The translations under genes and the position numbers were made by a program. From Streptomyces sp. YIM 121038 (lineage in GTDB: Bacteria; Actinomycetota; Actinomycetes; Streptomycetales; Streptomycetaceae), in contig NZ_CP030771.1 in the NCBI RefSeq assembly GCF_006088715.1, positions 1,612,001-1,676,000 on the forward strand: a stretch of DNA of 64,000 nt, read 5' to 3'. The notes beneath the pieces are model-generated. The model saw only the letters and a program-made list of their open reading frames with translations, made no database searches and was not told the origin of the DNA. Below are positions 1,258 to 25,925 of this stretch, one piece after another. Numbering within the stretch: the stretch's first letter is position 1; every line of letters starts with the position of its first letter.

Positions 1258-2097
1258 TCACAGCCCCAGCCGGGCGCGGGCGTTGGCCCACGCATCCGTG
1301 CAGTGCCGGGCGGTCTCGCCCTTGGCCTGCGCGGCGGCGAACAGCCGCACCACGTCGGTGTCGGTGAGGCAGCCGCACCGGCCGTGCGTGGACAGCACGG
1401 CCAGGAAGGTGCGGTAGACGGTGGCGTGCACGGCGCTGCGGGCGTCGGTGATGCGCTGCTCGGCCATGGCGATGCCGCGCTCCAGGTAGGCGGGCGTGCG
1501 GTGGGGGCATGCTCCGCCCCCGGCGGGTGCGGGCACGCTGAGGGAGCTCGGCGTGGGCCGGGCCGTGGCGGGCTTCTTCACGGCCAGCGCGCGCACGATG
1601 TCCGGCAGCGCCGCGGGGGTGCCGGTGCCGGGGCCGAGCCAGCGGGCGTAGGCCATGCGGGACTTGATGTCGATGCCGGGGCGTACTCCGTGTGAGGAGG
1701 GCATGGTGCCCGCGTAGAGCCAGTGCTGGCCGCGTGTGGTGGGCAGGGTGCGGGTGGGGGGCAGGTGGGCTTGGGCCCAGGCGATGGCGTCGGCGTGGTC
1801 GAGGTCGACGACGGTGAGGCGGGCACCGGCGGGGTGGTAGGCGATGGCGGTGGCTTGCCGCCATGCGGCCGTCCAGGCCGGGGAGGTGAGCGTGCCCGGG
1901 TCGGTGGTCGCGGCAGCCCAGGCGTGGCACGGGCGCGGGCACCTGCACGGCCCGGCCTGTTTCATGTTGGGTCGGCCGCCGCAGGCGTTCTTGGCGCAGG
2001 CGCAGCAGTTGCCGAAGGGGGCTTTGCCCACGCGCAGCGGCAGCACCGGCACGCCTTTGGCCGCGAGCTGGAGCGCGGTGCGCAGGTGCTCACTCAT
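1258..2097 (-). CDS. Bifunctional DNA primase/polymerase (Prim-Pol, AEP fold)
   Basis: A 279-residue protein. The N-terminus (AAKGVPVLPLRVGKAPF) and a cysteine-rich stretch (residues about 28-55) are typical of Prim-Pol proteins of actinomycete elements. VVDLDHADAIAW supplies the acidic D-x-D pair of archaeo-eukaryotic primases. GIDIKSRMAYARWLGPG matches the later catalytic segment. The ATG at 2097 was chosen because it overlaps the methyltransferase stop (ATGA), giving translational coupling; longer upstream readings are an antisense-like, low-complexity sequence. A Prim-Pol plus ATPase is one of the known AICE replication types, so this is the probable replication initiator of the element. 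It would prime and copy excised element DNA. Family assignment is firm; polymerase activity is inferred. Confidence 0.85.
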   Translation of the reverse strand: MSEHLRTALQLAAKGVPVLPLRVGKAPFGNCCACAKNACGGRPNMKQAGPCRCPRPCHAWAAATTDPGTLTSPAWTAAWRQATAIAYHPAGARLTVVDLDHADAIAWAQAHLPPTRTLPTTRGQHWLYAGTMPSSHGVRPGIDIKSRMAYARWLGPGTGTPAALPDIVRALAVKKPATARPTPSSLSVPAPAGGGACPHRTPAYLERGIAMAEQRITDARSAVHATVYRTFLAVLSTHGRCGCLTDTDVVRLFAAAQAKGETARHCTDAWANARARLGL

Positions 2098-3170
2098 GCC
2101 GCCACCTCCAGCGCGGGCGCGGCGGTGGCGCCGAGGAGCAGGCCGTAGGCGTGGTGGGCCTGTTGGGGCACGACGCCGTTGCCGATGATGCGGAGCTGTT
2201 CCTTGCGGGGGATGCCGGGCACGGCGGTGACCCAGCCGGCCGGGAGGCCCATCATCCATTCGGCGAACGCCGGGGAGAGTCGCCGGTTGCCGCGGGCGCC
2301 GGGCTCGGTCGGGCAGGGTGCCGCCCGGCCGGTGAGGTGTTCCCAGCGGCGGATGGCGGGCCCGTAGTCGGTGCCGTCGGTGGCCACCCAGCGCTCATCG
2401 AGACGCACGGCCTGGCCGGGCAGGTAGTAGCGGCCCGAGGTGTCGCGCTGGTTGGGGCCGCCGTGGGGTCCGTCGGAGGCCTTGGGGGTGGGCAGCAGCC
2501 TCAGCCGGCGGGCGGGGGCGGCAGCAGGAAGACCACCTCGTCCTCCAGCGTCGGCCCGTGCCCGCCCGCCTTCCGCTTCGCCGGCGGCTGCGGGCCGCCA
2601 TTGGCCCCAAGCTGCGCCGTGGGGGTCTTCAGCAGCCGGATAGGCGAGGGCGAACCAGCGGTCGCGCTCGTGCGGGGCGCCGGTTTCGGGGTCACCAGCT
2701 CGTAGACATGTCCAGCGCGCGTCATACCCGAGCGCGGCCAGGTCCTGGGCGACGACGTCCAGCCCCCGCGAGCGGAGCGCCGCCACGTTTTCCAGGAAGA
2801 CGAGGCGCGGTCGAAGGTAGCCCACAGCCTGAGCGACGTTTTTCCAGACGCGCGACCACTGGCCATTGATTCCATCCCTTCGTCCAGCGTTGCTGATGTT
2901 GCGGCAGGGGAAACCGGCGCTGATCACGTCCGGGGCGTACTGGTCGCGGACTTGGTGCCAGTCCATGGCGGTGATGTCCCCGAGGTTGGGCACCGCGGGG
3001 TGGTGCGCGGCGAACACGGCCGCGGCGTGCGGGTCGTTCTCGGCGTAGGCGGCCACCCGGCCGCCGATCCCGGCACGGATCGCCGTCTCCAGTCCGCCAT
3101 AGCCGGCGCACAGGGCGACGATCCTTGGCGGTGCCCCGGAGGTGTGCCGGATGTCAGTGGGGTGGTTCAT
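2094..3170 (-). CDS. DNA (cytosine-5) methyltransferase, internally frame-shifted
   Basis: The ATG at 3170 is preceded by an AAGGAGG-type site. Motifs in order: SAM-binding ALCAGYGGLE (19-28), catalytic GFPC (Pro88-Cys89), LENVAAL (E127, N128), GAPHERDRWF (164-173), and C-terminal IIGNGVVP. It would methylate cytosine and protect against the HNH nuclease encoded divergently. Between about 2645 and 2515 the annotated frame carries low-GC3, low-complexity sequence. The next frame instead encodes the family-typical RLLKTPTAQLGANGG and KRKAGGHGPTLEDEV with almost pure G/C third positions. The gene therefore seems to hold two compensating frameshifts that replace about 43 residues while keeping the reading frame open. 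Activity is uncertain. Confidence 0.85.
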   Translation of the reverse strand: MNHPTDIRHTSGAPPRIVALCAGYGGLETAIRAGIGGRVAAYAENDPHAAAVFAAHHPAVPNLGDITAMDWHQVRDQYAPDVISAGFPCRNISNAGRRDGINGQWSRVWKNVAQAVGYLRPRLVFLENVAALRSRGLDVVAQDLAALGYDARWTCLRAGDPETGAPHERDRWFALAYPAAEDPHGAAWGQWRPAAAGEAEGGRARADAGGRGGLPAAAPARRLRLLPTPKASDGPHGGPNQRDTSGRYYLPGQAVRLDERWVATDGTDYGPAIRRWEHLTGRAAPCPTEPGARGNRRLSPAFAEWMMGLPAGWVTAVPGIPRKEQLRIIGNGVVPQQAHHAYGLLLGATAAPALEVAA

Positions 3171-3269
3171 GCTGGGGTCCTCCTTGCTGATGAGTGGTGG
3201 GGAGCCGGGCCGGTCGCGGGCTTTGGCGAGAGCGCGACCGGCCCGGAGCTGGGGAGGGAAGGGGAGCGT

Positions 3270-4241
3270 GTGGCAACGGCGTGGCTGGTCCTGGCGGCGG
3301 GCGACAATCGCAAGCACGGGGGGAATGGCGGCTATGACGATCTGCCGTCGGAGCACTACAGCTGGGACAGCTCGGTGCCGCATCACGCGTCCCTGGCCGC
3401 CGGGGACGTGATCGCTGTATGGGACAAGACGGCCCTGCTGGGCATCTCCGTCATCGAGGCGATCGAGACCGGCCAGGCCGTGAAGGAGGTCTACCGCTGC
3501 CCCGGGTGCGGCAAGGCGGACTTCCAGCCGCGCAAGACGAAGCGGCCCGTATACGTCTGCCTGAAGTGCCCGGCGAGATTCGACGTCCCCACGGCCGGGA
3601 CCAAGACCGTGACGACCTACCGCTCGCGCCACGGTGCGGCCTGGGTCGACATGCCCGGGGTGCTGAGCGGCGCCGAACTGCGGGCTCTGTGTGACAACCC
3701 CCGCACGCAGCACAGCTTGCGCTCGATGCGGTGGGAAGGGCTGCGGTCCGCGATCGAGGAGACCGGCGCGGCCACGAGCGTGGATATCGCCGACAGCGCG
3801 CAACGGGCGATCGCGGGCGGGCACCGGCAGGCCACCGTGCGCGCCCGGCTGGGCCAGGCCGCCTTCCGCCGCCAGCTCTTGCAGGCCCACGGGCAGACCT
3901 GCGCCATCACCGGGCCCGCCCCGGCGGCGGTGCTGGAGGCCGCCCACCTGTATAGCTACGCGGTCAGCGGCGAGCACCACAGCGACGGCGGGCTGCTGCT
4001 GCGCCGCGATGTCCACCGACTGTTCGACCTGGGCCTCCTGGTGGTCGACCCGGCCTCGCTGACGGTGGATGTCGCAGCCCCGCTGCTGCCCTACCCCGCG
4101 TACGCGGCCCTGCACGGCGCGCCGCTGGCCGTCCCGGTCACCACACGCCACCGGGCATGGCTGCGGGCTCACCGGGACCTCCACCGCCACGGCCGGCCCG
4201 CCACGGCACCTGCCTCCCGGGGCGAGCTGGACCAGGTGTAG
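3270..4241 (+). CDS. HNH endonuclease with zinc-ribbon insert (candidate restriction enzyme)
   Basis: A 323-residue protein from a GTG at 3270, preceded by GGGAAGGGGAG. Residues 1-65 (TAWLVLAAGDN, then WDKTALLGISVIEAI) resemble a PUA/EVE-like sensing domain. C77/C80 and C97/C100 form a zinc ribbon. The C-terminal nuclease core starts at CAITG (C211), with H226 in LEAAHLY and DVHRLFDLG at 247-255, the HNH_2 type seen in McrA-like and restriction nucleases. It is transcribed away from the C5 methyltransferase with a 99-bp shared promoter region, the layout of a restriction-modification pair. The next gene is also an HNH protein. A nuclease for modified or unmodified foreign DNA is inferred; the recognition site is unknown. 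Confidence 0.8.
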   Translation: MATAWLVLAAGDNRKHGGNGGYDDLPSEHYSWDSSVPHHASLAAGDVIAVWDKTALLGISVIEAIETGQAVKEVYRCPGCGKADFQPRKTKRPVYVCLKCPARFDVPTAGTKTVTTYRSRHGAAWVDMPGVLSGAELRALCDNPRTQHSLRSMRWEGLRSAIEETGAATSVDIADSAQRAIAGGHRQATVRARLGQAAFRRQLLQAHGQTCAITGPAPAAVLEAAHLYSYAVSGEHHSDGGLLLRRDVHRLFDLGLLVVDPASLTVDVAAPLLPYPAYAALHGAPLAVPVTTRHRAWLRAHRDLHRHGRPATAPASRGELDQV

Positions 4242-4250
4242 GAGAGCCGG

Positions 4251-4892
4251 ATGCCCTCACACCTCGCGCGGCGCGGGAAACATGAATCAGAGCGGCGCAG
4301 GCGGCGCTACTTTCCCCTGTGGGAAGAACTCACCGTGGTGACCGCCCACGACGGGCGGTGCGTGTACTGCCTGGCTCCCTCTGAGGTCAAAGACCACGTC
4401 ATCCCCTACAAGCGCGGCGGAGACGACGACCCGCGCAACCTCGCTCCGGCGTGCGTGGCCTGCAACCTCGCCAAAGGCGACCGCACACCGCTGGAGTTCG
4501 CCGCGCTCAGCCTCAACCCCGGCGTCTGGGGCCCGGGCGGACACCCGGGACGAGGACGATTACGAGACGAGATGGACGAGCTGCGCCGACGCTATGAAGT
4601 ATGGGTGGAGCGCATCGAGTGCACACAGCTCGAAATCCTCAACCCGCGCCGCAGGAGCTGGTTCCAGTACGACCTGGGCAGCACCTATTTCAACACCAAG
4701 ACGCCGCCAACGATCCGGGTGAGGGCGGCCATCTACCGCGCCTTCTACCCCCGGCACATCGCGCAGGCCGCGGCGACGGACTGGACCACGGACCACTTCA
4801 CCTTCCGCGCCTTTCAGCACCGCCGCTGGGGTGTGGAATCCGAGGACCCCAACGACTGGAAGCTGGCCTGGCCCGACCCGCAGTCGGGCTAG
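4251..4892 (+). CDS. HNH endonuclease, CxxC zinc type
   Basis: A 213-residue protein. Its Shine-Dalgarno (AGGAG) overlaps the stop of the preceding HNH gene, so the two form an operon. The N-terminal half has the classical zinc-stabilised HNH fold: CVYC (C37, C40), DHVIPYKRGG with D48/H49, PRNLAPACVACN with N63, C68 and C71. The C-terminal half (residues 100-213) is rich in aromatic and charged residues and is not recognised; it could bind DNA. Pairing two different HNH nucleases next to a C5 methyltransferase suggests a defence cassette, with this protein as second nuclease or nickase (Vsr-like repair is possible but no Vsr motif is seen). Confidence 0.82.
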   Translation: MPSHLARRGKHESERRRRRYFPLWEELTVVTAHDGRCVYCLAPSEVKDHVIPYKRGGDDDPRNLAPACVACNLAKGDRTPLEFAALSLNPGVWGPGGHPGRGRLRDEMDELRRRYEVWVERIECTQLEILNPRRRSWFQYDLGSTYFNTKTPPTIRVRAAIYRAFYPRHIAQAAATDWTTDHFTFRAFQHRRWGVESEDPNDWKLAWPDPQSG

Positions 4893-6744: not shown

Positions 6745-6832
6745 GGTGTGACGGCCGCCGTGATGGGCCCGTCACACCCGTGTCTGCCTAGGGGTTTGGG
6801 TGTGACGGGCCCGTCACATGTGACGGCGTCAC
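6745..6832. promoter_or_regulatory. Cluster of TGTGACGG octamers (candidate TraB recognition/clt site)
   Basis: The octamer TGTGACGG occurs five times in about 80 bp: forward at 6747, 6801 and 6819, inverted at 6769-6776 and 6811-6818. Two copies form a perfect 18-bp palindrome, TGTGACGGGCCCGTCACA, at 6801-6818. Streptomyces TraB proteins bind clustered 8-bp repeats (TRS) in the clt locus near traB, and their sequence varies with the TraB wing-helix. The position at the 3' end of traB fits this role. A terminator or a repressor site is the main alternative. Confidence 0.5.
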
Positions 6833-8880
6833 GCTGCGGCGCGCTCGGGGATGATTCGCCATCGGCCTGTGGTGTTGGTCGCCTCCAGGCGGCCCTGGAT
6901 CGCGGCAGCCTTCAGGCGCTTGGACACCCATGAGCGGGTCAGGTCGTGAGCGTCGCACCAGTCCATGAAGTCGCGCGGGCCGACGACCATCCGCCCGGCG
7001 GCCTCGAACTCATCCAGTGCCTGCGCGAACAGCTCACGGGCCTCAGCCGGGGAGGGCTTACGGCCGCTGTCCGTCCCGAACAGCGGGGCGTCGTCGCCCT
7101 GCTGCGCTTCGGGCAGCTCGGCTTCGGGGTCGATGTCTGCGTCCTCGGGGTCGACCAGCAGGCCCGCGTCCTCCACGTCCTGATCGTCGCCCGATCGGAT
7201 CGGCCGCACCACTGGACCGTCGCCCGGCTCGGAGGCGGGACGTCCGGTATACGCGGTCCCGGCCACGCTCTTGAGTGCGCCGGCGGTGACGGGGTCGGCG
7301 GCGGCACCGTGGCGCTGTGCCCACAGGGCGAGTTGCTGCATGGTGTCCACGGCGCCCGGTGTGAAGCGCCAGGTGCGGCCCGGTGAGGCGTAGCGGTCTT
7401 CGTCGATGCCGGGTGAGACGACGTAGCAGTAGCCGGGCTTGCGGTTGCGCCACGCCCCCGGGTGGGCGCCCGCGGCGAGGACTTCGTCGGGCAGGCTGAA
7501 GCCTTCGTCGTCAGGGTGGCAGCCGAGCGCGATCACCGACGGCAGCGAGGCCCTGGTGGATGTCGACATCTGGTCGTAGGACGGGCGCTGGAGGGAGATG
7601 ACCAGGGAGACGCCCGCGGAGCGGGCTTCTTGGGCAATGCCGGTGAACGCGTCGTCACCGACGAACCGCAGGGTGTTCGCGGCCTCCTCGAACCAGGCGA
7701 CCATGAACGGCATCCCCGCACACCCGCACGCGCGTCCGTCAGGGCGGCAGGAGTGGGCCGGGTCGGTCTGCTCGTGTGCGGCTTCGGGGATCCACTGGCG
7801 GTACTGGTGCTGGCCGAGCCAGCGAGTGCGGGCCGGGATCGCCGCCTGCACGGCCGCCACCATGGTCTCGGTCGGGGCCCCACCCTCCACTGCCCAGTCG
7901 TAGCCAGGCAGCAGCGGGCGGAAGTCCTGGAAGGACTTGGGGTCGGAGAAGACCATCGTCACGTCGCGGCGGGAGAGGATTTCAGTCTGCAGGTTCAGTG
8001 CGGCGTCGCCCTTGCCGGAGCCCGTTCCGCCCGCGACCAGCACGTGCGTGCCGTTCCGTCCGGACTCCGGGTCCCCGGGCAGCCACAGCAGCAACGGCGA
8101 GCCATCGTCATACCGGCCGATCACCAGCGGATCGGCGATCGACCCGCCGAGGTTGGAGGGGCCTTCCCATTCCACGGTCTCGGCGAGCATGTCTTCGGGG
8201 ACGATGACCAGGTCGCCGCGGCGGGCCGAGTCGGGGTCGGGCTGGTAGCGCACTGCGGAGGCGGGCAGGTCCAGCGCGGAGGCGATGCGGGGCAGCGCCC
8301 CGGCCATGTCCGCGTTGGTCTGCGTGCCCGCATCGAGTTCCACGCGTGCCGTGGCCCGGTTCGGCTCCACCCGCGCGGCGCGGATCTGCGCCCGGGCCAG
8401 GCCGATCTTCTCCATCAGCCCGCCGTCCCCGCTGCTCTGCTCGCCGGTGTCGGAGGTGCGCATGAAGATCCGCACGTTCCACGACAACGCCAACGCCGGA
8501 CCGCCCATCAGGTAGAGGTCATCGACCGGCCCGGCGGCGGGCCCTGCGAGGCAGGCGGCCGTCAGCCACGCCGAGCCCAGCGCCGTGGTGATCGCCGAGT
8601 GGAGCCGCCGCTGCTTGCTGGCGCTCTTGCCGATCACCCACGCACCGCCGGACATGGCGACGGAGGTGAGGGTCAGGCCGACGGCGGCGGCCGGGCTCGC
8701 CGCCCACCGCTCGTGGCCGAGGACTCCGGCCAGGCCGACCCCGGCCACCCCGAGCCAGGGCGGCAGGTGCGGCTTGGCCCTGCCCAGCAGGTAGTTGCTG
8801 ACCCCGCTGGCGCCGGTGCCGCCTTCGCGGGTGTTCACCAGTTGCGCGAGCTGCGCCTGCATGTTCTGGTCCGTGGTCAT
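6829..8880 (-). CDS. traB: TraB-like FtsK/SpoIIIE DNA translocase for conjugation
   Basis: A 683-residue protein from ATG 8880 (a GTG five codons earlier at 8895 is possible). N-terminal residues carry hydrophobic segments (for example VAGVGLAGVLG and AAAVGLTLTSVAMSGG). The motor domain has Walker A LVAGGTGSGKGDA, Walker B-like MPFMVAWFEEA, and LVISLQRPSYDQMS downstream. The last 60 residues (GPRDFMDWCDAHDLTRSWVS onward) form a winged helix that in TraB proteins reads the TRS octamers. TraB is the single protein needed for double-stranded DNA transfer between Streptomyces mycelia, acting as a hexameric membrane pump. This places the block firmly as a conjugation module. Confidence 0.9.
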   Translation of the reverse strand: MTTDQNMQAQLAQLVNTREGGTGASGVSNYLLGRAKPHLPPWLGVAGVGLAGVLGHERWAASPAAAVGLTLTSVAMSGGAWVIGKSASKQRRLHSAITTALGSAWLTAACLAGPAAGPVDDLYLMGGPALALSWNVRIFMRTSDTGEQSSGDGGLMEKIGLARAQIRAARVEPNRATARVELDAGTQTNADMAGALPRIASALDLPASAVRYQPDPDSARRGDLVIVPEDMLAETVEWEGPSNLGGSIADPLVIGRYDDGSPLLLWLPGDPESGRNGTHVLVAGGTGSGKGDAALNLQTEILSRRDVTMVFSDPKSFQDFRPLLPGYDWAVEGGAPTETMVAAVQAAIPARTRWLGQHQYRQWIPEAAHEQTDPAHSCRPDGRACGCAGMPFMVAWFEEAANTLRFVGDDAFTGIAQEARSAGVSLVISLQRPSYDQMSTSTRASLPSVIALGCHPDDEGFSLPDEVLAAGAHPGAWRNRKPGYCYVVSPGIDEDRYASPGRTWRFTPGAVDTMQQLALWAQRHGAAADPVTAGALKSVAGTAYTGRPASEPGDGPVVRPIRSGDDQDVEDAGLLVDPEDADIDPEAELPEAQQGDDAPLFGTDSGRKPSPAEARELFAQALDEFEAAGRMVVGPRDFMDWCDAHDLTRSWVSKRLKAAAIQGRLEATNTTGRWRIIPERAAA

Positions 8881-8891
8881 CGCGCGGCGCC

Positions 8892-9410
8892 TCACTGCTG
8901 TGCCCAGTTCATCGCGGGCGTCTTCGGCTTACGGGCCCGGTGGCGGACGCGGTTGATCTCCTCCTGGTACTCCTGCTGGAACACCGCGTACGTGGCCGCG
9001 GCGTTCTTGGCCGCGTCGCGCAGCGCGTTCGCGGACTTCTTCAGCTTGCGGGAGACCTTCGCGGCGCGGAGCCGCGAGCCCAGCACCCGCCCCTCCGGGT
9101 CCGGCACCGCGGCGAGGACGCTTTGCATGATCTCGGCGGCCATGGCGACCTCCATGGACAGCATCACCCCGGCCGCGCGCAGGGTGTTGCAGTAGTTGCG
9201 CACCTGGGCGGGGCTGTTGAACTCCGGCGGCGGCAGCAGCGACTGCCCGCCCCCGGCACCGTGGCGGGAGGGCCGGTTGACGTTGATGTTGATGGACGGC
9301 ATGAAGCTGCCGCCCATGGCGCCGACGAAGCCGCCGGCGGCGGCTCCGGCGTTGGCGAACTTGTTGCCCTTGTTGGCGCCCGCAGCGCCGTTGCGGGTGG
9401 GGGTGGCCAT
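8892..9410 (-). CDS. Plasmid transfer-associated protein (172 aa)
   Basis: Starts at ATG 9410, whose last base is shared with the stop-side end of the upstream membrane gene. The N-terminus is Gly/Ala/Asn-rich (NGAAGANKGNKFANAGAAAG) and contains SININVNRPS; the C-terminal two thirds is helical, with NYCNTLRAAGVMLSMEVAMA and a basic tail RVRHRARKPKTP. No catalytic motif is visible. It is encoded just upstream of traB in the same operon, where Streptomyces elements often carry a TraA- or Spd-type partner of the translocase. Function inferred from position only. Confidence 0.7.
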   Translation of the reverse strand: MATPTRNGAAGANKGNKFANAGAAAGGFVGAMGGSFMPSININVNRPSRHGAGGGQSLLPPPEFNSPAQVRNYCNTLRAAGVMLSMEVAMAAEIMQSVLAAVPDPEGRVLGSRLRAAKVSRKLKKSANALRDAAKNAAATYAVFQQEYQEEINRVRHRARKPKTPAMNWAQQ

Positions 9411-9922
9411 CAGTCCGTCTCCTTGGAGATCGAGCGACGCAGCACAAACCAGGCACCCTGGGCCGCCAGCAGGCCCAGGAACCACAGGACATCCAGCGGC
9501 CCGGCCAGCGGGCCGAGCAGGATCGCGAGCGCGGTCCACAGGCCGACGACGGCCGCGGTGGCTGCGGCGGCCCACTGCCAGGACCGGTCCCCGCCCTTGA
9601 CACGGCGGCGCAGCGGCGGGGTGAGCAGGACGAGCGGAGGCAGCAGCCCGGCCACGGCCACCAGCGCGCCTGCCCACGGGGCGAGGACGTGCAGGATCGC
9701 GGCCAGCAGCAGGAGCAGCACGGCCGTGGCGGTGGGGAGCAAGGCCAGGCGGTGGCGCCATAACAGCAGCCCGACCGTGTGCAGGGCGCGCGCGGCGAGG
9801 GAGGGGCGCTCGGGCACGACCAGCAGGAAGGAGTCCTGGCGGCGGCCGCGCTGGCGCGGGATACGGACCGTAGTGGCCCCGGCGGACACCTTCACCGTGC
9901 GGGGACGAGTAGGACTGGGCAC
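9410..9922 (-). CDS. Membrane protein of the transfer operon (four predicted segments)
   Basis: A 170-residue protein from GTG 9922 behind AAGGAGTG. A basic N-terminus (about 50 residues) precedes hydrophobic segments: HRLALLPTATAVLLLLLAAI, APWAGALVAVAGLLPPLVLL, AAAATAAVVGLWTALAILLG and LDVLWFLGLLAAQGAWFVL. This is the topology of SpdB-like spread proteins. It lies two genes upstream of traB. No sequence motif ties it to a named family. Confidence 0.7.
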   Translation of the reverse strand: MPSPTRPRTVKVSAGATTVRIPRQRGRRQDSFLLVVPERPSLAARALHTVGLLLWRHRLALLPTATAVLLLLLAAILHVLAPWAGALVAVAGLLPPLVLLTPPLRRRVKGGDRSWQWAAAATAAVVGLWTALAILLGPLAGPLDVLWFLGLLAAQGAWFVLRRSISKETD

Positions 9923-10066
9923 AGCAACACTCCTTGGATGAAAACTCAGTGGGGCAGCGCGAGGCTACGTCGGCGACCTCGTGCACCGGCGAGGGCAGGC
10001 GCCTTCGCAGTCGCGGTGAAGACCAGACCTGGACAGGGCGCCCGGAGAGGGTTGGGGCGCTGGGTG

Positions 10067-10378
10067 TCACACCGTGTGGTGCGGGTGAGCGGCAGCAACT
10101 TGCTGCCAGCGACGGTCTTCCGCGGCGCCCGCGCGCTTCAAGCGGACCTGGAAGGTGCAGCCCGAACGCGTGCAGCGGTGCGTCGTGGTGTCCCGGGCAT
10201 CAACGATGCGGAACAGCAGATCCAGGGCGCTGGCCAGCACCGAGCCCGCACACGCCAGCAGCAGCAAGAGCGGCACGTGGTGGTTGTGCAGGCGCAGGCC
10301 TACCGCCATGGCCAGCGTCGTCGCGATGGCGGCACAAACGGGAATGACGAGACGGTCACGGAACGTCCTGCGGTTCAC
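10067..10378 (-). CDS. Small membrane protein of the transfer operon
   Basis: A 103-residue protein with GTG start at 10378 and a GGAGG site. Two hydrophobic stretches are present (LVIPVCAAIATTLAMAVGL and VPLLLLLACAGSVLASALDL). They are followed by a short C-terminal tail with a C-x5-C pair (HRCTRSGCTFQV). A spread-type accessory protein is the best guess. The gene sits between the zinc-binding protein gene and the 170-residue membrane protein gene, all on one strand with short gaps. Confidence 0.6.
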   Translation of the reverse strand: MNRRTFRDRLVIPVCAAIATTLAMAVGLRLHNHHVPLLLLLACAGSVLASALDLLFRIVDARDTTTHRCTRSGCTFQVRLKRAGAAEDRRWQQVAAAHPHHTV

Positions 10379-12593: not shown

Positions 12594-12952
12594 GGAAGAA
12601 TCTGAAGCGCGTCATCGTCACTGCTCTGACGCCAGCAGGGCGGCGCGCACCAGGTGGCGCCCCAGGGGTTGGCCTCCCGTGAGGAAGGGATGATCCCCGA
12701 GAGCGTTCTCCAGAGCTGGCACGCGGGGCAGGGACAGATTCGCCCCGCCACGAGGTGGCCGCCAGCGGCCGTCACCCGGGCCGTTGCGGGGACGGGGACT
12801 CTCACCCCGTCGACTTGTCGCGCTATTGAGTTCTCAACCAACGGCGCTCACTTCGTACTCACCCCAGCGGGGCTTTCCTCCGGGCGATGGAGTCGGCCGG
12901 GCCGCCCCCTATCGGGCTCTCACCCAATGCAGACTGTTCTAGCACGACTGCT

Positions 12953-13020: not shown

Positions 13021-13389
13021 ATGACGCCTACTTCTGACGACGCGCGACGGGTGAACGAGCAGATCGCCGAGACCCTGCGGGACGAGATCAAGACCGGCAG
13101 GCTGAAGGTGGGAGACAAGCTCCCCTCGGTTCGCGCGATCGCCGAGCGCTTCGAGGTCGCCCCGGGGACGGCGACCAAAGCCGTCCAACTGCTCGCGAAG
13201 TGGGAGCTGGTGGCCCCCGACTCGACGCGCGGCTACTTCGTGAGCGCTCAGGTCTCAGGCGATGAGGAAGTGCCGGGCCCCAGCCCCGAGTTCGCGGCCA
13301 TCATGGAGGAGGTCGCAGCGATGCGTGAGCACCTAGCGCGTCTCGACGAGCGGCTCCAGCGGTTGGAGGATTCGGAGAAGCGAGGTTGA
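13021..13389 (+). CDS. GntR-family regulator, short YtrA-like form
   Basis: A 122-residue protein starting at ATG 13021. Residues 10-75 form the GntR winged helix (LRDEIKTGRLKVGDKLPSVR, then FEVAPGTATKAVQLL). There is no large effector domain; instead a short helix with heptad pattern (MREHLARLDERLQRLE) should dimerise. It is encoded divergently from the transfer operon. In related elements a GntR repressor (KorSA-type) keeps transfer and replication silent, so this is the probable transfer repressor. Confidence 0.85.
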   Translation: MTPTSDDARRVNEQIAETLRDEIKTGRLKVGDKLPSVRAIAERFEVAPGTATKAVQLLAKWELVAPDSTRGYFVSAQVSGDEEVPGPSPEFAAIMEEVAAMREHLARLDERLQRLEDSEKRG

Positions 13390-16077: not shown

Positions 16078-18294
16078 TTAGTCAGTTGCAGCCTCTCGTG
16101 CAGCCCGTATCACATCAGCTGCCTTCATGCCGCATTGAGCCCACGTAATACTAAAGCTCCAGCCTATGCGGACAACCTGGTCACCGCTAATGCCGATGGG
16201 TAGGCGGATATTATTCTGCATTCTCAAGACGAGGTCCTGGGCAGCGAACTTTGTGATGCCGTCGACAAGCAAGACGAACTCGTCCCCGTCAAGCCGGGCG
16301 ATTGTATCTCCCTCTCGAGAAAAGACTGCCAGACGTCGGCCGACCTCGATGAGGACGAGATCACCACTCTGACGCCCAAATCGAACATTGATCCGCTTGA
16401 AGTCGCGGAGCGCACAAAAAACAACAGCCAGCCCGGTGTCATGCGGATCATTTTGGGGAGCAGTTGCATGTCGATGGTGTTCCTGAAGGTCACCATACGG
16501 TTGGCAAAGGTAAGCGCTCAGGCGAACGTGCAGCTCAGCAGAGTTTGAGAGCCCCGTGAGCTGGTCATGAGAAGCGCGATGAGCCAGTTCGAGCTCGCGA
16601 CGCTTTCGCTCCTGGATGTCTTCGACATGGGTGAGTAGAAAACGCGGCCCTTCAGGGGAGTCCGCGACGACAGTGTTCCGCATGGAAACCCATACATAGG
16701 TGCCGTCGCGGCGCCCAAGGCGCAGCTCCACACGGCCATTTTCGGCGGAAGTTCTCAGTAGCAGTTCAATGTCCTCAGGATGGACGAGATCCGAGAAGGC
16801 GTAGCGGCGAAGCGCTCTTGCAGGACGCCCGAGCAATCGGCACAGCGCGTCGTTGGTGCGCAGAATTCGACCGTGCTGGTCACCACCCATCTCAGCTATA
16901 GCCGCGCCATTAGGGGCATACTCGAATGCCTGCCTGAAGCTTTCCTCGCTAGCGCGCAAAGCCTTCTGCTCCCGCTCCAGGCGGACCAGGGCACGCTGCA
17001 TGTTGGCACGGAGACGAGCATTACTGATTGCGATGGCCGCCTGGAATGCGTAGGACCGCAATGCATCCCGCTGTTCCAGGTTGGGGCGGCGGCCAGCGGG
17101 CGGCCCACCTACGGTTATGACGCCAAGCAACTGCCGGCGGGTACCGTCGGGCACATACATGGCGGCGAATAGGCGATCCAGGGGGTGCCACTCATCCTCG
17201 AAGCGTGGCAGGGGGCCGTCGGTGTACCACCCCGGGATGTCATCATCGTCGCCGAGTCGACTTTCGGTATAGGGGATGAAGCGGAGGAGGTCACCCCACG
17301 CTTCACCCATGGAGAAGTGACGGTCCCAGGCAGCGCGAGAGCCGACCTGTCCAGTAATGCGACCTTCAACCTCGATGTTGCCCGAAAAGGAAGCTACGAC
17401 GAGGTCACCGTCTGGGCGTACAAGGTTCACGCAAACCATCTCGTAACCAAGCCCACTCACGAGACCGTCCGAGACGGCCTGCAGCGTGTCGGCCAGACTA
17501 CGGGCAACATGCAGGTCTTGCATAGCGGCTTGGAGATCAGAACGAAAATCGTGAGCTTGTTCCGGCACATAGGCAGGGTTCCGGACGAATGCAGCACGAC
17601 CTACCTGGTTGCGACCCAAGCACTGTGGATCAGGCCGTGCCTGACGCCTCAGAATTGACTGAACTCCTAGGAAAACCGTGTCTAGGTCGAGAAACTCGGG
17701 CGCGTCCGCTATGCCATCAGTTAACACGCCCACCAAAGCACCAGTGAAGGCCGTGAACGCCTCCCCGGGAGGTGCAAGGGCGATGGCACTCTCGTGGGCT
17801 GCCGCAAGTACATAAGTACCTTCTACTTCAGCGAGTGCCGCGATGCTCGATGCAGGTGACTGCACTCCCATCGCGCGGGCACTGAAACAGCAGTCGAGAA
17901 TTACGACGCACCGTGCCGCACCACTATCGGTCAGCCGCATGCGCATCCAGTCGTAGGGGAATGCCGTCGAATGAACGGCACTCGTATCACTGTCGGGCAT
18001 GCCCAAATACAGTCGGCCTTGACGGTCGAGCAACCCATGTCCCGCGTAGTACAGCAACAAAGTGTCCGTTGCTGCTTCTGCGGCGCTGAAGATGGCTTGG
18101 TCAACCTCGCGAGTAGAGGCAGGATTAAGTAACTGGGTACAGCATGACGGGTCCATCCCCCACACGTCACCGGAAAATAAATCGACAAGCGTAGACAAAT
18201 TTCGCTGGACCGCTGGAAGAGGTTCGAGACTGCTGAACCTGTCAACCCCGATGAACAGCGCCCGTGATTTTTGGGCGTCGGGAAGTTCACTCAC
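16078..18294 (-). CDS. Caspase-GAF-PAS-degenerate GGDEF fusion protein (EACC1-associated)
   Basis: A 738-residue protein from GTG 18294. Residues 8-240 are a caspase-like peptidase (C14): strand ALFIGVDRF, catalytic His86 in LYYAGHG, and Cys136 in VILDCCFSA. Residues about 255-430 resemble a GAF domain. Residues 448-565 are PAS (SFRQAFEYAPNGAAIAEMGG, then FLLTHVEDIQERKRR). Residues 575-735 are a GGDEF domain (HDQLTGLSN, RLDGDEFVLL). The GGDEF signature is DGDEF, and the metal-binding DLD segment is replaced by A628-L-R630, so cyclic-di-GMP synthesis is unlikely; nucleotide sensing is more plausible. The EACC1 gene lies 15 bp upstream in the same direction. Codon use is less GC-rich than in neighbours. 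Best inference: a sensor-regulated protease effector of a conflict or cell-death system. Confidence 0.88.
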   Translation of the reverse strand: MSELPDAQKSRALFIGVDRFSSLEPLPAVQRNLSTLVDLFSGDVWGMDPSCCTQLLNPASTREVDQAIFSAAEAATDTLLLYYAGHGLLDRQGRLYLGMPDSDTSAVHSTAFPYDWMRMRLTDSGAARCVVILDCCFSARAMGVQSPASSIAALAEVEGTYVLAAAHESAIALAPPGEAFTAFTGALVGVLTDGIADAPEFLDLDTVFLGVQSILRRQARPDPQCLGRNQVGRAAFVRNPAYVPEQAHDFRSDLQAAMQDLHVARSLADTLQAVSDGLVSGLGYEMVCVNLVRPDGDLVVASFSGNIEVEGRITGQVGSRAAWDRHFSMGEAWGDLLRFIPYTESRLGDDDDIPGWYTDGPLPRFEDEWHPLDRLFAAMYVPDGTRRQLLGVITVGGPPAGRRPNLEQRDALRSYAFQAAIAISNARLRANMQRALVRLEREQKALRASEESFRQAFEYAPNGAAIAEMGGDQHGRILRTNDALCRLLGRPARALRRYAFSDLVHPEDIELLLRTSAENGRVELRLGRRDGTYVWVSMRNTVVADSPEGPRFLLTHVEDIQERKRRELELAHRASHDQLTGLSNSAELHVRLSAYLCQPYGDLQEHHRHATAPQNDPHDTGLAVVFCALRDFKRINVRFGRQSGDLVLIEVGRRLAVFSREGDTIARLDGDEFVLLVDGITKFAAQDLVLRMQNNIRLPIGISGDQVVRIGWSFSITWAQCGMKAADVIRAAREAATD

Positions 18295-18309
18295 GTGCCG
18301 CCCCTACCG

Positions 18310-18666
18310 TTATTCTTCGAGCAGTTGTTCTATCAGGTGCTGCGCCTCATCTCGAGTTGCGCCTGTGATCGTGACCTTGCTGCCGTCGGCGCGCTCGACG
18401 GTGATGGTGGGTTTCTGGGGGCGAGTGGCCCGCCACGACGCGATGGATACCCCGAGAGAGCCAGCACTGATGCCGCTGCCAAGCACAAGTGACACCAGGT
18501 CCAGGGGTGCACCTTGCTGTCCCGGTAGCGGCAAGGAAGAGGATGTCATCTCAACGCGGACCTCACGTCGAATAGTGCGATCCAGGAGTAACCATTCAAA
18601 TAGGGAGCGAACGTCGCCCTCGGTAGAGTCGCCATCGATCTGCAATGTGACGCGCAAGTGCCCCAC
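18310..18666 (-). CDS. EACC1-type effector-associated adaptor
   Basis: A 118-residue protein. The N-terminal half forms beta-rich sequence (HLRVTLQIDGDSTEGDVRSL, then TIRREVRVEM). It is followed by a hydrophobic helix (LDLVSLVLGSGISAGSLGVS) and a C-terminal ferredoxin-like strand-helix unit (TITVERADGSKVTITGATRD). This order is the hallmark of effector-associated constant component 1, which is encoded just ahead of proteases, ATPases and other effectors in actinobacterial conflict systems. The caspase gene follows after 15 bp. The role is probably to couple the effector to a sensing partner or to the membrane. The family call is from memory of the pattern and needs a profile search. Confidence 0.82.
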   Translation of the reverse strand: MGHLRVTLQIDGDSTEGDVRSLFEWLLLDRTIRREVRVEMTSSSLPLPGQQGAPLDLVSLVLGSGISAGSLGVSIASWRATRPQKPTITVERADGSKVTITGATRDEAQHLIEQLLEE

Positions 18667-19579
18667 CCTCAGTGTGCTGTCTCACGGACCGTCAGCATAG
18701 AGCGACCAAGTAGGGCCGCGCGGTGCGGATGGCAATGCCGGGAAAGTTCTGGCTACAGCGGCGCATCTCGATAGACGCGCGTGAGGAGTGCGTGAGCGCC
18801 ATCAGACCTTTCAGCCCAGGCTGCTTCCCTGCAGGTCAGAGTCACCAACCCGGACGATATCCGCATGCGCTCCGGAGCCGTGTGCGCAGCCAAGTCACGT
18901 GAGATGGCGCCGTCGGCGCCGGGCCGTCTGTGGGCCGTGCGAGCGTGGCCTCCAGCGACCGGCAACGACGAACGACAGCCATTGGGGCGGCTGGCCAGCC
19001 CTACGGCAGGGGCGACTGAGCCAGATCGCCCATGGGCCCCGCCACTTCGTGCGCAACAAGAGGCAGGGCTGCCGCACGGGGACTCACCGGGGAGCCATAC
19101 AGGGAGCCAATCACCGCAGCATTAGGTGGACTCCCATGGACCCGCATGGATGTTCGTAGGCCCCAGGGCCTGGTCAGGGAGGAGGTTCAGGGCCCCGTTC
19201 ATGCCTCACCGATCAACCTAGCCTTACCAATCCGATAAACGGACCGGCCAGTACGGTGAACGGTTCATGCACGTCAGCGGGCGGATGTCGGGGCTCCGCT
19301 CGGCCCGGCCAGGCGCCGTGGCTCCCCGTTCGGCCCCCCGGGCCCGAATATGTCGCCTATATCACCCATGTCGCTTATGGCATCCGCGCCTTCGGCGCCG
19401 ACCGGGTAGGAGCACGCCTTCGCCCGAGTGAAGACCTGGAAGATCCTGCGCGGCTGTGAGCGAGGCCGCCAGGCCCGAGGGATCCTCGGCTTCCGCTCCG
19501 GTCAAGTCGTCAACCGGGCACATCGATGCCGTGCCACGGCGTACACGGTGTCGATCCAGCCTGCCCCGGGGTGGGGGAA
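18667..19579. other. Junction between island and chromosomal core, no reliable gene
   Basis: About 700 bp upstream of the EACC1 gene plus the out-of-frame tail of the TerD fusion. Several short overlapping frames exist on both strands, none with both a good ribosome site and codon bias. The EACC1 promoter should be near 18670-18750. No attachment repeat or tRNA was found, so the right border of the mobile region cannot be placed exactly. Confidence 0.45.
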
Positions 19580-21668
19580 TCAGGTCGCTGATGTCCGTTC
19601 CGGGGAGGAGGGCCGGCGTGGGGGCGAGGGTTCCAGGTGGGTCACCACCGTGGCGTAGAAGCGGTGTACCGCGTCGTCGACGCTGCGGATGAAACCGGAC
19701 TCGGCGTTGCCGCGGCTGCTGCCCATGCCCTTGAAGAGGGAGAGGCGGAAGCCGGTGATGTGTGCGCCGTCCTTGGGCAGCAGGTCGGCCGGTTCGGGGC
19801 GCAGGCGTTCCAGGGTGCCCCGCGGCCCGCCCGCCTCCTCCTCGACCAGGGTCTCGATGTGGAGGTCGGCGGGGGCCTCGGCGAGGCGCCTCACGAGCCG
19901 TTTCGCCCAGGTCAGGGGATAGCCCTGGTCCGGTGCGGGAATCTCGACGCAGGTGCGCAGCCTGCCGGCCGGTGCGCAGGTCGGCGATCACCGTGAGGAG
20001 GCCGGGCGTGCCCTCGATGCGGACCTCCGCGTGCAGCCTGCCTTCGAGGCACAGCTGGTCCGCGAGGCGCGACCGGCGGGTCCCGGGGTCGATACCGCGC
20101 TTGGACCGCTGGACGGGCAGCACCTTCTGGCCGAGCTCACCGCCGAGCCTCAGGCACACCTGACGGATGAGCCGTTCCCAGCTCTCCACCACCTCTAGGG
20201 CGCGGGCGTCTCCATGGCACAGGGTCTCGTCGTCGATTCCGTTGCGTACGGGAACCCAGGCGGAGCCCATGTTCTGGAAGCCGTGACAGCCCGAGCTCTC
20301 GTGCTGGAGGTAGTGCAGCAGCTCCTGGAGCAGCCAGGCGTGCGCCACGTTGCCCACACCCTCGTGCCGGATCAACAGCTGCGCCTGGTGGACGACTTCG
20401 GCCCAGGACAGGTGCCAGAGCGCCACCTTGTGTTTGCGCCGCCCGTCGATCCTGACGTCGACGAGGGGGCTGCCCTCCAGCGCGACGTCGTTCGACAGGG
20501 TGATGACGGCCTCGTAGCCCCGGCGCGTGGCGATGTCCATGTACGCCTGCACCTGTTCGGCCCTGAGGGCGTTCCCGTTGGTCTTCGTCTCCACCAGCGC
20601 GGTCCACAGCTTTCCGGCCCGCTCGACGCGGATCACTCCGTCCGGGCGCCGCGGAGCGTCGCCGTGGGGCAGCGAGACCTCGGCGAACGTCTCCATGCGG
20701 CCCGCCGGCGCGCCGAACCCCGCCGTGAGCCTCCTGCCGAACTCCGGAACCTGCGCCATCACCGAGAGGAGCACGGACGTGGCCCGCGTCTCCCGGTCCC
20801 GGTCGCTCTTGAGCACGGAGACCGGGAAGAGCCTGGCCGACCTCCAGGACTCGTTCTCCGCCAGGGACTTCCTGGCCGCCCTGGGCAGGGTGACCTTCTT
20901 CTTGGCGGTACGAGGACGGGGCGTGGGCTTCTCCGGCTCCCCCTCGCCCTCGGGCCGCCGGGGAGCCGGTACGGCCTCAAGGACCGGGGGCGGTGCGCCG
21001 TCGGCCGCCGGGGCCGCGGGGGCGACGGCTGCCTCCACGCCCCCCGCCGCCACGTCCCGCGGCTCCCCGTCGGCCCCGTCAGCCCCGTCAGCCCCGTCAG
21101 CCCCGTTGGCCTCGTCAGCCGCGTCGTCATCGATGTCCACACCGAAGTCCGTTGCCAGGCCCGCCAGTCCGGCCGCGTACCCGTCCCCGACGGCCCGGAG
21201 CTTCCACGCGCCGCCGCGGCGGTAGAGCTCGCCGAAGATGAACGCGCTCACCGCTCCCGCCTCGTCGATCCCGAAGCGGACCAGGTCCTCGCCACAGGCG
21301 TCGGACAACGTCAGCCGCAGATCGCCCAGTTCCCCGAAGCGAGCTCCGTCGTACCGGCTCGCCGCCACCACGATGCGGTCGATCCCGTCGGGCACCGCGG
21401 TCAGGTCGAAGCCGATCCGGTCCTTGTTGCCGCTCCCGCTGGGAGACTTGCCCAGGAGCTGGACGCTTCCGTCAGCGGCCACCGGGTTGTTGTAGAAGTA
21501 GAAGTCCGCGTCACTGCGCACCTTGCCGTTGGCGTCGAGGAGCAGGACGGAGACGTCGGCGTCGCCCTCACCCGTCGAGCTGGTCCACTCCAGACTCACC
21601 ATCACGGAGCCGACGTTCTCGCTCAGGGCCGCCAACCCCACGTTGGCACCCTTGGTCAACTCGTACAT
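19580..21668 (-). pseudogene. TerD-PD-(D/E)XK nuclease-like fusion, frameshifted near its 3' end
   Basis: The start is ATG 21668 (MYELTKGANVGLAAL). Residues 1-180 are a TerD stress domain (SVMVSLEWTS, GDADVSVLLLDANGKV, NKDRIGFDLTAVP). An acidic Gly-Ala-Asp linker follows, then a basic segment. Then comes a PD-(D/E)XK-like nuclease core: RPDGVI (D343) and ALVETKTNGN (E360, K362). Near 19964-19973 the coding strand reads ACCGGCCGGCAGG where ACCGGCAGG would keep the frame: a 4-bp CGGC duplication. After it the original frame continues as TCVEIPAPDQGYPLTW to FYATVVTHLE and ends at 19580. The shifted frame runs on as Arg/Pro-rich sequence to 19362 (768 residues). Most of the protein would still be made, with an altered C-terminus. 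Confidence 0.75.
21073..21108. repeat. 9-bp tandem repeat inside the TerD fusion
   Basis: Four consecutive copies of gccccgtca (the last ending ttg) encode Gly-Ala-Asp repeats in the linker between the TerD and nuclease-like parts. Such slippage-prone repeats vary in number between strains. Confidence 0.75.
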
Positions 21669-21854
21669 GCCCCCGCCCCCTCTTACGCACGCCGAACGCG
21701 CATCGCCCGTCCCCATCGCCCGACGGACGACCCGATGTGATGTGCGACACATTCGCCGCACGGCAGGACTCTAGTACTCGGCGGGCGCGGTCCGTGGCGG
21801 TCTGCCGGAAACGGCGGAAGGGGGTGCGGCCGCGGTGAATGTGCTGTTCCGAGG

Positions 21855-24203: not shown

Positions 24204-25925
24204 TCAGAAGAGGAAGTAGCGCTGGGCCATGGGGAGTTCGGCCGCCGGTGCGGGCTCCACCAGCTCGCCGTCGATCGTGACCGCGAAGCTGTCGGGCGCC
24301 ACCTCCACCCGGGGCAGGGCGTCGTTCTCCCGCATGTCCGCCTTCGTGCGCCCCCGGGTCGAGCGGATGGCCACGAAGCGCCGGTCGAGGCCGAGGCGCT
24401 CGGGCAGGTCGTCGTCGAGGGCCGACTGGGTGACGAAGTTGACGGAGTTGAGCGCGGGCGCCCGGCCGCGGGCGCCGAACATCGGGCGCGGAAGGACCGG
24501 CTGCGGCGTGGGGATCGAGGCGTTGGCGTCGCCCATCTGCGCGTACGCGATCTGCCCGCCCTTGAGGACGACCTGCGGTTTGACGCCGAAGAACGCGGGT
24601 TCCCACAGGACCAGATCGGCCAGCTTGCCGCTCTCCACCGAGCCGACCTCGTGCTCGATGCCCTGGGCGATGGCCGCGTTGATCGTGTACTTCGCGACGT
24701 AGCGGCGGGCCCGGTGGTTGTCGGCGCGGGTGTCGCCGGGCAGGGCGCCCCGGCGGCGCTTCATCACGTGCGCCGTCTGCCAGGTGCGCAGGACGACCTC
24801 GCCGATCCGGCCCATCGCCTGGGAGTCCGAGGACATGATCGAGATCGCGCCCAGGTCGTGGAGGACGTCCTCGGCGGCGATGGTGGTGGGGCGGATGCGG
24901 GACTCGGCGAAGGCCAGGTCCTCCGGGACCGCCGGGTTGAGGTGGTGACAGACCATCAGCATGTCGAGGTGCTCCTCGACGGTGTTGACGGTGTGCGGAC
25001 GCGTCGGATTGGTCGAGCTGGGCAGCATGTTCGGCAGCGAGACCGCCGTGATCATGTCGGGGGCGTGGCCGCCGCCCGCGCCCTCGACGTGGAAGGCGTG
25101 CATCGTACGGCCGCCGACCGCGGCGAAGGTGGCGTCGACGAAGCCCGCCTCGTTCAGGGTGTCGGTGTGGACGGCGAGCTGGGCGCCCGTGTCCTCGCAG
25201 ACGTTCAGACAGGCGTCGATGACGGCGGGGGTGGCACCCCAGTCCTCGTGGATCTTGAAGCTGACGGCGCCCGCGCGCAGCTGCGCGTGCATCGAGGCGG
25301 CGTTGGTCGTGTTGCCCTTGCCCAGGAAGCCGATGTTGACGGGGCTGTTCTCCATCGCGGCGAACATCCGCGCCAGATGCCAGGCGCCGGGTGTGATCGT
25401 CGTGGCCTTGCTGCCCTCGGCGGGGCCCGTGCCGCCGCCGATGAGCGTGGTGACGCCGGAGGCCAGGGCCTCGTCGACGATGGTCGGCGAGATGAAGTGG
25501 ATGTGCGTGTCGATGCCGCCCGCGGTGAGGATCTTGCCGTTGCCCGCGAGGATCTCGGTCTCGGGGCCGATGACGAGCTCGGGGTGCACCCCGTCCATGG
25601 TGTCCGGGTTGCCCGCCTTGCCGATGCCCGTGATGCGGCCGTCGCGGATGCCGACGTCGGCCTTGACGACGCCCCAGTGGTCGATGATGAGCGCGCCGGT
25701 GACGACGGTGTCGGGCGCGCCCTCGGCCCGGGTCGTGCGGGCCTGGCCCATCGACTCGCGGATGACCTTGCCGCCGCCGAACACGGCCTCGTCGCCGGAG
25801 CGTCCGGGGCCGCCCGAGCGGTCCTCCTCGATCTCCACGAGCAGGTCGGTGTCGGCGAGCCGGACGCGGTCGCCGGTGGTGGGGCCGAACAGGTCCGCGT
25901 ACGCGGCTCGGGACAGCTCAGGCAC
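24204..25925 (-). CDS. ureC: Urease alpha subunit UreC
   Basis: A 573-residue protein from GTG 25925, overlapping ureB by 8 bp. The nickel ligands are present: HIHFISP (H-x-H), the carbamylated lysine in [12 protein letters not shown], histidines in [22 protein letters not shown], catalytic His in [13 protein letters not shown] and Asp in [10 protein letters not shown]. It hydrolyses urea to ammonia and carbamate in the cytoplasm, giving nitrogen supply and acid resistance. Length matches the family. All active-site residues appear intact. Confidence 0.98.

Follow-up and report, generated by a model that had tools for sequence, protein, structure and literature searches.

The EACC1 gene and a caspase-GAF-PAS-GGDEF fusion gene form a two-gene pair at 16078-18666 on the minus strand of the window, which is the whole 64,000-nucleotide stretch of Streptomyces sp. 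YIM 121038 analysed here; all coordinates given below for parts of the pair are on this strand. The 5' gene (18310..18666) encodes an EACC1 protein of 118 aa (PF19953, E = 3.7e-25; 115 aa if the possible alternative start at 18657 is used) with 39 homologues at E ≤ 0.001. ORF analysis places it 15 bp before the fusion gene (16078..18294), whose 738 aa product was described using the ORF, profile domains and an AF2 model. This arrangement had been proposed by a sequence-only reading of the locus and is confirmed by the ORFs and by matches to PF19953, NF047832 and PF00990. The signs of foreign DNA that it pointed out hold as well. The GC content of the pair is 59% compared with 72% across the window, and the plasmid transfer genes TraB and TraA (6832..10070, minus strand; NF041214 and NF041213, both above cut-off) are located about 6 kb away. 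We infer that the transfer genes are a remnant of an integrated plasmid-like element.

The AF2 model of EACC1 (pLDDT 80.8) displays a compact alpha/beta fold. Hydropathy peaks at 1.74 across residues 57-75, where the model places a strand (residues 55-62) and a helix (residues 68-80) within this fold. The passages of PMC7159879 on EACC1-caspase systems describe EACC1 with a single transmembrane helix, a reading that may want checking given the split between strand and helix in the model.

The fusion protein begins with a caspase domain (residues 10-217; 17644..18267) that matches NF047832, the NCBIfam model of this caspase type, above cut-off. Profile search, alignment and AF2 model together predict a caspase fold with a His-Cys dyad, His86 and Cys136, which is invariant across seven aligned fusion caspases. 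The earlier proposal of a caspase-like protein with these two residues is thereby borne out, and both the caspase and EACC1 families were found by profile searches, with the folds predicted by AF2. The caspase is followed by a CdgB-derived GAF domain (residues 263-425; 17020..17508; GAF_3 matches weakly) and a long helix (residues 406-458 by AF2 secondary structure and pLDDT; 16921..17079). Many alignment columns of the helix are invariant or near-invariant, while the model has low confidence at its end (residues 449-470). It leads into a CdgB-derived PAS domain (residues 452-565; 16600..16941; PAS_9, E = 9.6e-8), and a degenerate GGDEF domain (residues 575-735; 16090..16572; PF00990, E = 1.2e-20) completes the protein. 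The protein catalogue entry for this gene (P0005; window 16078-17523) comprises 481 aa and begins at residue 258, with the caspase lost.

Alignment of the GGDEF domain revealed changes at two sites expected in an active cyclase. DGDEF (residues 669-673; 16276..16290) replaces the GGDEF motif, and Ala628 (16411..16413) is found at the position of a CdgB Asp that we take to be metal-binding, with its role as in PleD. What is presumably the RxxD inhibitory-site motif is kept as REGD (residues 660-663; 16306..16317). Since the catalytic residues are lost, the domain cannot count as a working cyclic-nucleotide domain, and on this point the sequence-only reading does not hold.

Kaur et al. described the EACC1-caspase two-gene system ('System 4') in 2020 and counted as many as 50 kinds of domain at the C-terminus; in the pertinent passages these C-terminal parts are viewed as effectors freed by auto-proteolysis, and an anti-invader or cell-death role is predicted (PMC7159879). 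The window pair consists of a 5' EACC1 gene and a 3' gene with an N-terminal caspase and a C-terminus that is variable among relatives, shares the actinobacterial host and the predicted conflict role, and is a member of this system. The proposed link to predicted conflict systems thus stands, with the role itself a prediction. The claim of a new system does not, as such pairs were described in 2020 and an NCBIfam model exists. The window pair departs from System 4 as described in these passages by its payload, which is closely related to a core regulator of the host, as a paralogue that is for the most part inactive. CdgB, GAF, PAS and GGDEF are not named as System 4 payloads in the section text of PMC7159879, which mentions nucleotide-utilizing and signalling domains broadly; the passages that mention GGDEF do so for VMAP and vWA parts only. 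Our literature searches found no caspase joined to a CdgB paralogue as payload and no experiment on the trigger, the substrate or the predicted anti-invader or cell-death role of EACC1-caspase systems. EACC2-caspase systems with TRADD-N, as outlined in PMC8195603, similarly combine a constant small domain, a caspase and a variable part, whereas their constant domain is a different one and resides inside the caspase protein itself.

After the fusion itself, the best match in this genome is the host's own CdgB (G000:C1:4526242-4527819), with an identity of 76% in query residues 253-598 and of 54% in residues 601-733. Divided by parts, GAF-PAS is 76% identical over 320 aa and the whole GGDEF part 44%. 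Identical residues amount to 109/159 in the GAF domain, 131/149 (88%) in the PAS domain with the preceding helix (residues 425-574) and 63/116 in the GGDEF core. Most of the caspase-free proteins among the best 120 database matches bear the name diguanylate cyclase CdgB and come from Streptomyces. CdgB has the domain order GAF-PAS-PAC-GGDEF, common to the C-terminal part of the fusion, and is reported in the available text of PMC6205966 to be a diguanylate cyclase that belongs to the Streptomyces core and governs development. Judged by these comparisons, the whole GAF-PAS-GGDEF part of the fusion is a paralogue of CdgB, a relationship overlooked in the earlier reading. The window copy differs in being fused behind a caspase, without catalytic residues, rare and accessory, whereas CdgB is core. 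On a GAF-PAS tree it clusters with other fusions and with copies from EACC1 contigs, away from the host's own CdgB. Being neither stand-alone nor inside the CdgB clade it is by this criterion not a CdgB orthologue, and the grouping marks it as an old paralogue. Of the other EACC1-caspase payloads, three were compared with the proteins of this genome and share at best 38% (SBP), 45% (kinase) and 27% (PQQ) identity with them, so next to these three CdgB has been copied unusually closely.

In order to compare the state of the GGDEF domain across relatives, 32 fusion rows (31 and the window) were reduced to 29 distinct fusions by removing the duplicates L011 (of P0001) and L049 (of P0015) and a 459 aa fragment (P0017). 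The domain is degenerate in 16 and absent in 10, and looks intact in three (P0007, P0014 and L042), which keep both the metal Asp and the GGDEF motif. Stand-alone CdgB, on the other hand, keeps both features in 97/97 sequences, a set made of 96 rows and the host's own CdgB that represents close kin and no random sample, as it derives from 102 rows of the best 120 matches. From these rows we dropped P0005, the window's protein with a late start, and set apart five short models whose contigs have the same lengths as those of EACC1 entries; all five are degenerate, and with them included the count is 97/102. As the sequences are related and hence not independent, a Fisher test on such counts is given no weight. 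Four of the short models (P0011, P0019, P0040 and P0049) are named diguanylate cyclase CdgB and one (P0013) diguanylate cyclase domain-containing protein, and the metal Asp is lost in each. CdgBs in loci from other genomes keep both features in 28/28 cases, which may overlap with the 97. The intact or lost label, given to the locus CdgBs by name and later borne out by these 28, changes at least five times on the GAF-PAS tree, indicating repeated loss, or regain or exchange of the domain in some copies.

GGDEF domains that are catalytically dead but keep an RxxD site are known to act as receptors of c-di-GMP. The REGD kept in the window copy could accordingly bind c-di-GMP and gate the caspase by the c-di-GMP level. 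Among the 19 fusions with a GGDEF domain, however, the Asp is kept in seven, GG[DE]EF in eight and RxxD in only eight, and the other 10/29 have no such domain, which makes a receptor of this kind unlikely. Alternatively, the caspase might cut itself, and the freed C-terminal part, acting as a functional diguanylate cyclase, would then block development. Auto-proteolysis is the model proposed in the passages of PMC7159879 on these systems, and the three fusions with both catalytic features may have a cyclase role. Nevertheless, both features are lost in the window copy and 26/29 fusions are degenerate or without the domain. With the enzyme lost and the sensor half kept, a released effector fits poorly and we consider it quite improbable.

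We next consider substitution rates, for which all dS values are rough and near saturation, several further pairs having yielded no value. Between the window copy and the host's own CdgB, dN is 0.216 for GAF, 0.085 for PAS and 0.379 for GGDEF at dS of 1.16-1.54 (1.16 for PAS), while own CdgB compared with 16 others gives 0.03-0.08, 0.01-0.03 and 0.01-0.07, respectively, at dS of 0.15-0.64. The dN rise relative to the CdgB-CdgB comparison is thus largest in GGDEF. The PAS dS is not clearly lowered, which argues against recent gene conversion. Compared with the fusion L011, dN is 0.077 for the caspase (dS 1.48), 0.105 for PAS (dS 1.24), 0.181 for GAF and 0.402 for GGDEF (dS 1.10), with all dS between 1.05 and 1.48. 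By these estimates the caspase and PAS are tightly constrained by purifying selection, GAF less and GGDEF least, and none looks neutral. The GGDEF domain evolves faster yet seemingly not neutrally and may therefore be retained for something. The sensor has shifted too, as the GAF identity of 109/159 compares with 141/161 and 148/161 in the two pairs of stand-alone CdgBs counted. An old fusion drifting out of use would be consistent with the low GC content, the rarity and the degraded GGDEF domain. The 738 open codons, the dyad invariant in the seven aligned caspases and the low dN of caspase and PAS at high dS in the comparison with L011 speak against such a decaying passenger, which seems very improbable.

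The fusion, an unusual architecture according to the sequence-only reading, is indeed rare. Of 392 Streptomyces genomes, at least six (G000, G007, G139, G280, G369 and G298) gave a single match spanning the caspase and CdgB parts, a lower bound since two candidates were scored per genome. Matches at E ≤ 1e-60 occur in 387/392 genomes, and among the matches listed those of all but eight genomes lie on the CdgB part. In the contig collection searched, 11/70 caspase loci carry a CdgB payload, all titled Streptomyces. Of 15 distinct fusion loci, 14 have EACC1 immediately upstream of the fusion gene, and the sequence of the 15th (L053) starts 37 bp before the ORF. A mobilizable plasmid from Streptomyces sp. 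NBC_01520 carries one caspase-GAF-PAS fusion with adjoining EACC1, a case that together with the low GC content suggests transfer between strains. A caspase tree unites 31/31 fusion rows in one supported clade, plus four rows with other or no recognised payload, and a single origin is not rejected on the GAF-PAS tree (p-AU 0.58).

In 2/392 genomes (G275 and G296) a pseudo-CdgB is attached to a different, caspase-free N-terminus, as if standing as its own module. These proteins of about 1040 aa (L016/L119 in G296, L017/L120 in G275) are composed of an N-terminal part without assignment, a second GAF domain and a dead GAF-PAS-GGDEF part. They contain no caspase, no EACC1 was found in the 14-16 kb fetched around them, and they show that a pseudo-CdgB of this kind is also carried on a second platform. 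A stand-alone CdgB is present in both genomes as well as in the window's genome, G007, G139, G280 and G369, which hold the fusion.

The most economical reading of these sequence data is a caspase under the control of CdgB's sensor half. The caspase would be switched by the GAF-PAS sensor of a catalytically degenerate paralogue that most likely produces no c-di-GMP, and we hold this to be about evenly balanced between right and wrong. Because the CdgB copy has lost key active-site residues, a role as sensor or bait rather than as enzyme is likely. The higher identity of GAF-PAS than of GGDEF to own CdgB, the contrast between fusions and intact stand-alone CdgBs, the dN rise that is largest in GGDEF, the recurrent upstream EACC1, the unusually close copying of a host protein and the pseudo-CdgBs on a caspase-free N-terminus all support this reading. 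Less easily accommodated are the three fusions with both catalytic features, the apparently non-neutral GGDEF domain and the diverged GAF domain. GAF-PAS might keep receiving CdgB's input or binding its partner, and a change relayed through the long helix would pair or release the N-terminal caspase together with EACC1. The caspase would then cut itself or other proteins, so that an infected or stressed hypha is stopped or redirected by death or a developmental switch.

A bolder and more tentative idea is that the pseudo-CdgB pairs with real CdgB via GAF-helix-PAS, as a bait by which the caspase senses tampering with CdgB or cleaves it. Cleavage would lower c-di-GMP and release development. 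The 131/149 identity of PAS and helix despite a dS of 1.16 implies that surface residues must be retained in addition to those of the pocket, and the seven genomes looked at, five with the fusion and two with the caspase-free form, all hold a stand-alone CdgB. On the other hand, CdgB's own PAS with helix is held still more tightly, with 147/149 identical residues in both CdgB pairs compared, for reasons of its own, so conservation alone does not establish pairing. Deletion of cdgB speeds sporulation according to the available text of PMC6205966, and removal of CdgB would favour it. Developmental state alters phage containment in the part of PMC10117723 at hand, where a hypersporulating S. venezuelae bldD mutant shows smaller plaques and quicker regrowth after phage attack.

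The pseudo-CdgB fusion resembles integrated decoys, which are known in plant immune receptors. It is conceivable, if speculative, that a conflict caspase took in CdgB, with the enzyme killed and the sensor face kept, and now guards or cuts the c-di-GMP developmental hub. Phage or stress would disturb CdgB, or the module would be triggered otherwise, whereupon CdgB would be removed by the caspase, leaving the hypha to die or to sporulate. Panoptes, in the passages of PMC12657218 consulted, likewise employs a decoy around cyclic nucleotides in phage defence; its decoy consists of nucleotides, whereas the possible decoy in the window pair would be a protein. Overall, the EACC1-caspase pair belongs to a known predicted system with a predicted defence role, and its unusual element is the CdgB-derived payload. 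An inactivated close copy of a named core regulator permits a concrete guess at trigger and substrate, namely CdgB, its input and c-di-GMP-controlled development, and thereby opens to experiment a possible connection of phage defence and caspase-like proteolysis with the multicellular development of Streptomyces.

Two further caspases in the same genome score above the EACC1-associated cut-off (G000:C1:8168003 and 9435714; L003/L121 and L004/L122). One carries a KAP NTPase, and the 10 kb fetched around it contain no recognised EACC1; the other adjoins EACC1 and carries a STAND-like NTPase. Within the window, a long ORF with a TerD domain (19362-21761, minus strand; E = 7.9e-47) has a C-terminal part that resembles a shifted frame by eye. 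A C-5 cytosine DNA methylase ORF (2097-4190, minus strand) overlaps one of two nearby HNH endonuclease ORFs (2952-4238 and 4251-4889, both plus strand), and these ORFs at 2097-4889 are possible restriction-modification genes. Finally, Rfam models detected a gntR-DTE RNA (12604-12778, minus strand; 90.5 bits) adjoining a GntR-type gene at 13021, and a 5_ureB_sRNA (25471-25761, plus strand; 82.8 bits) near ORFs that resemble urease accessory genes by eye.
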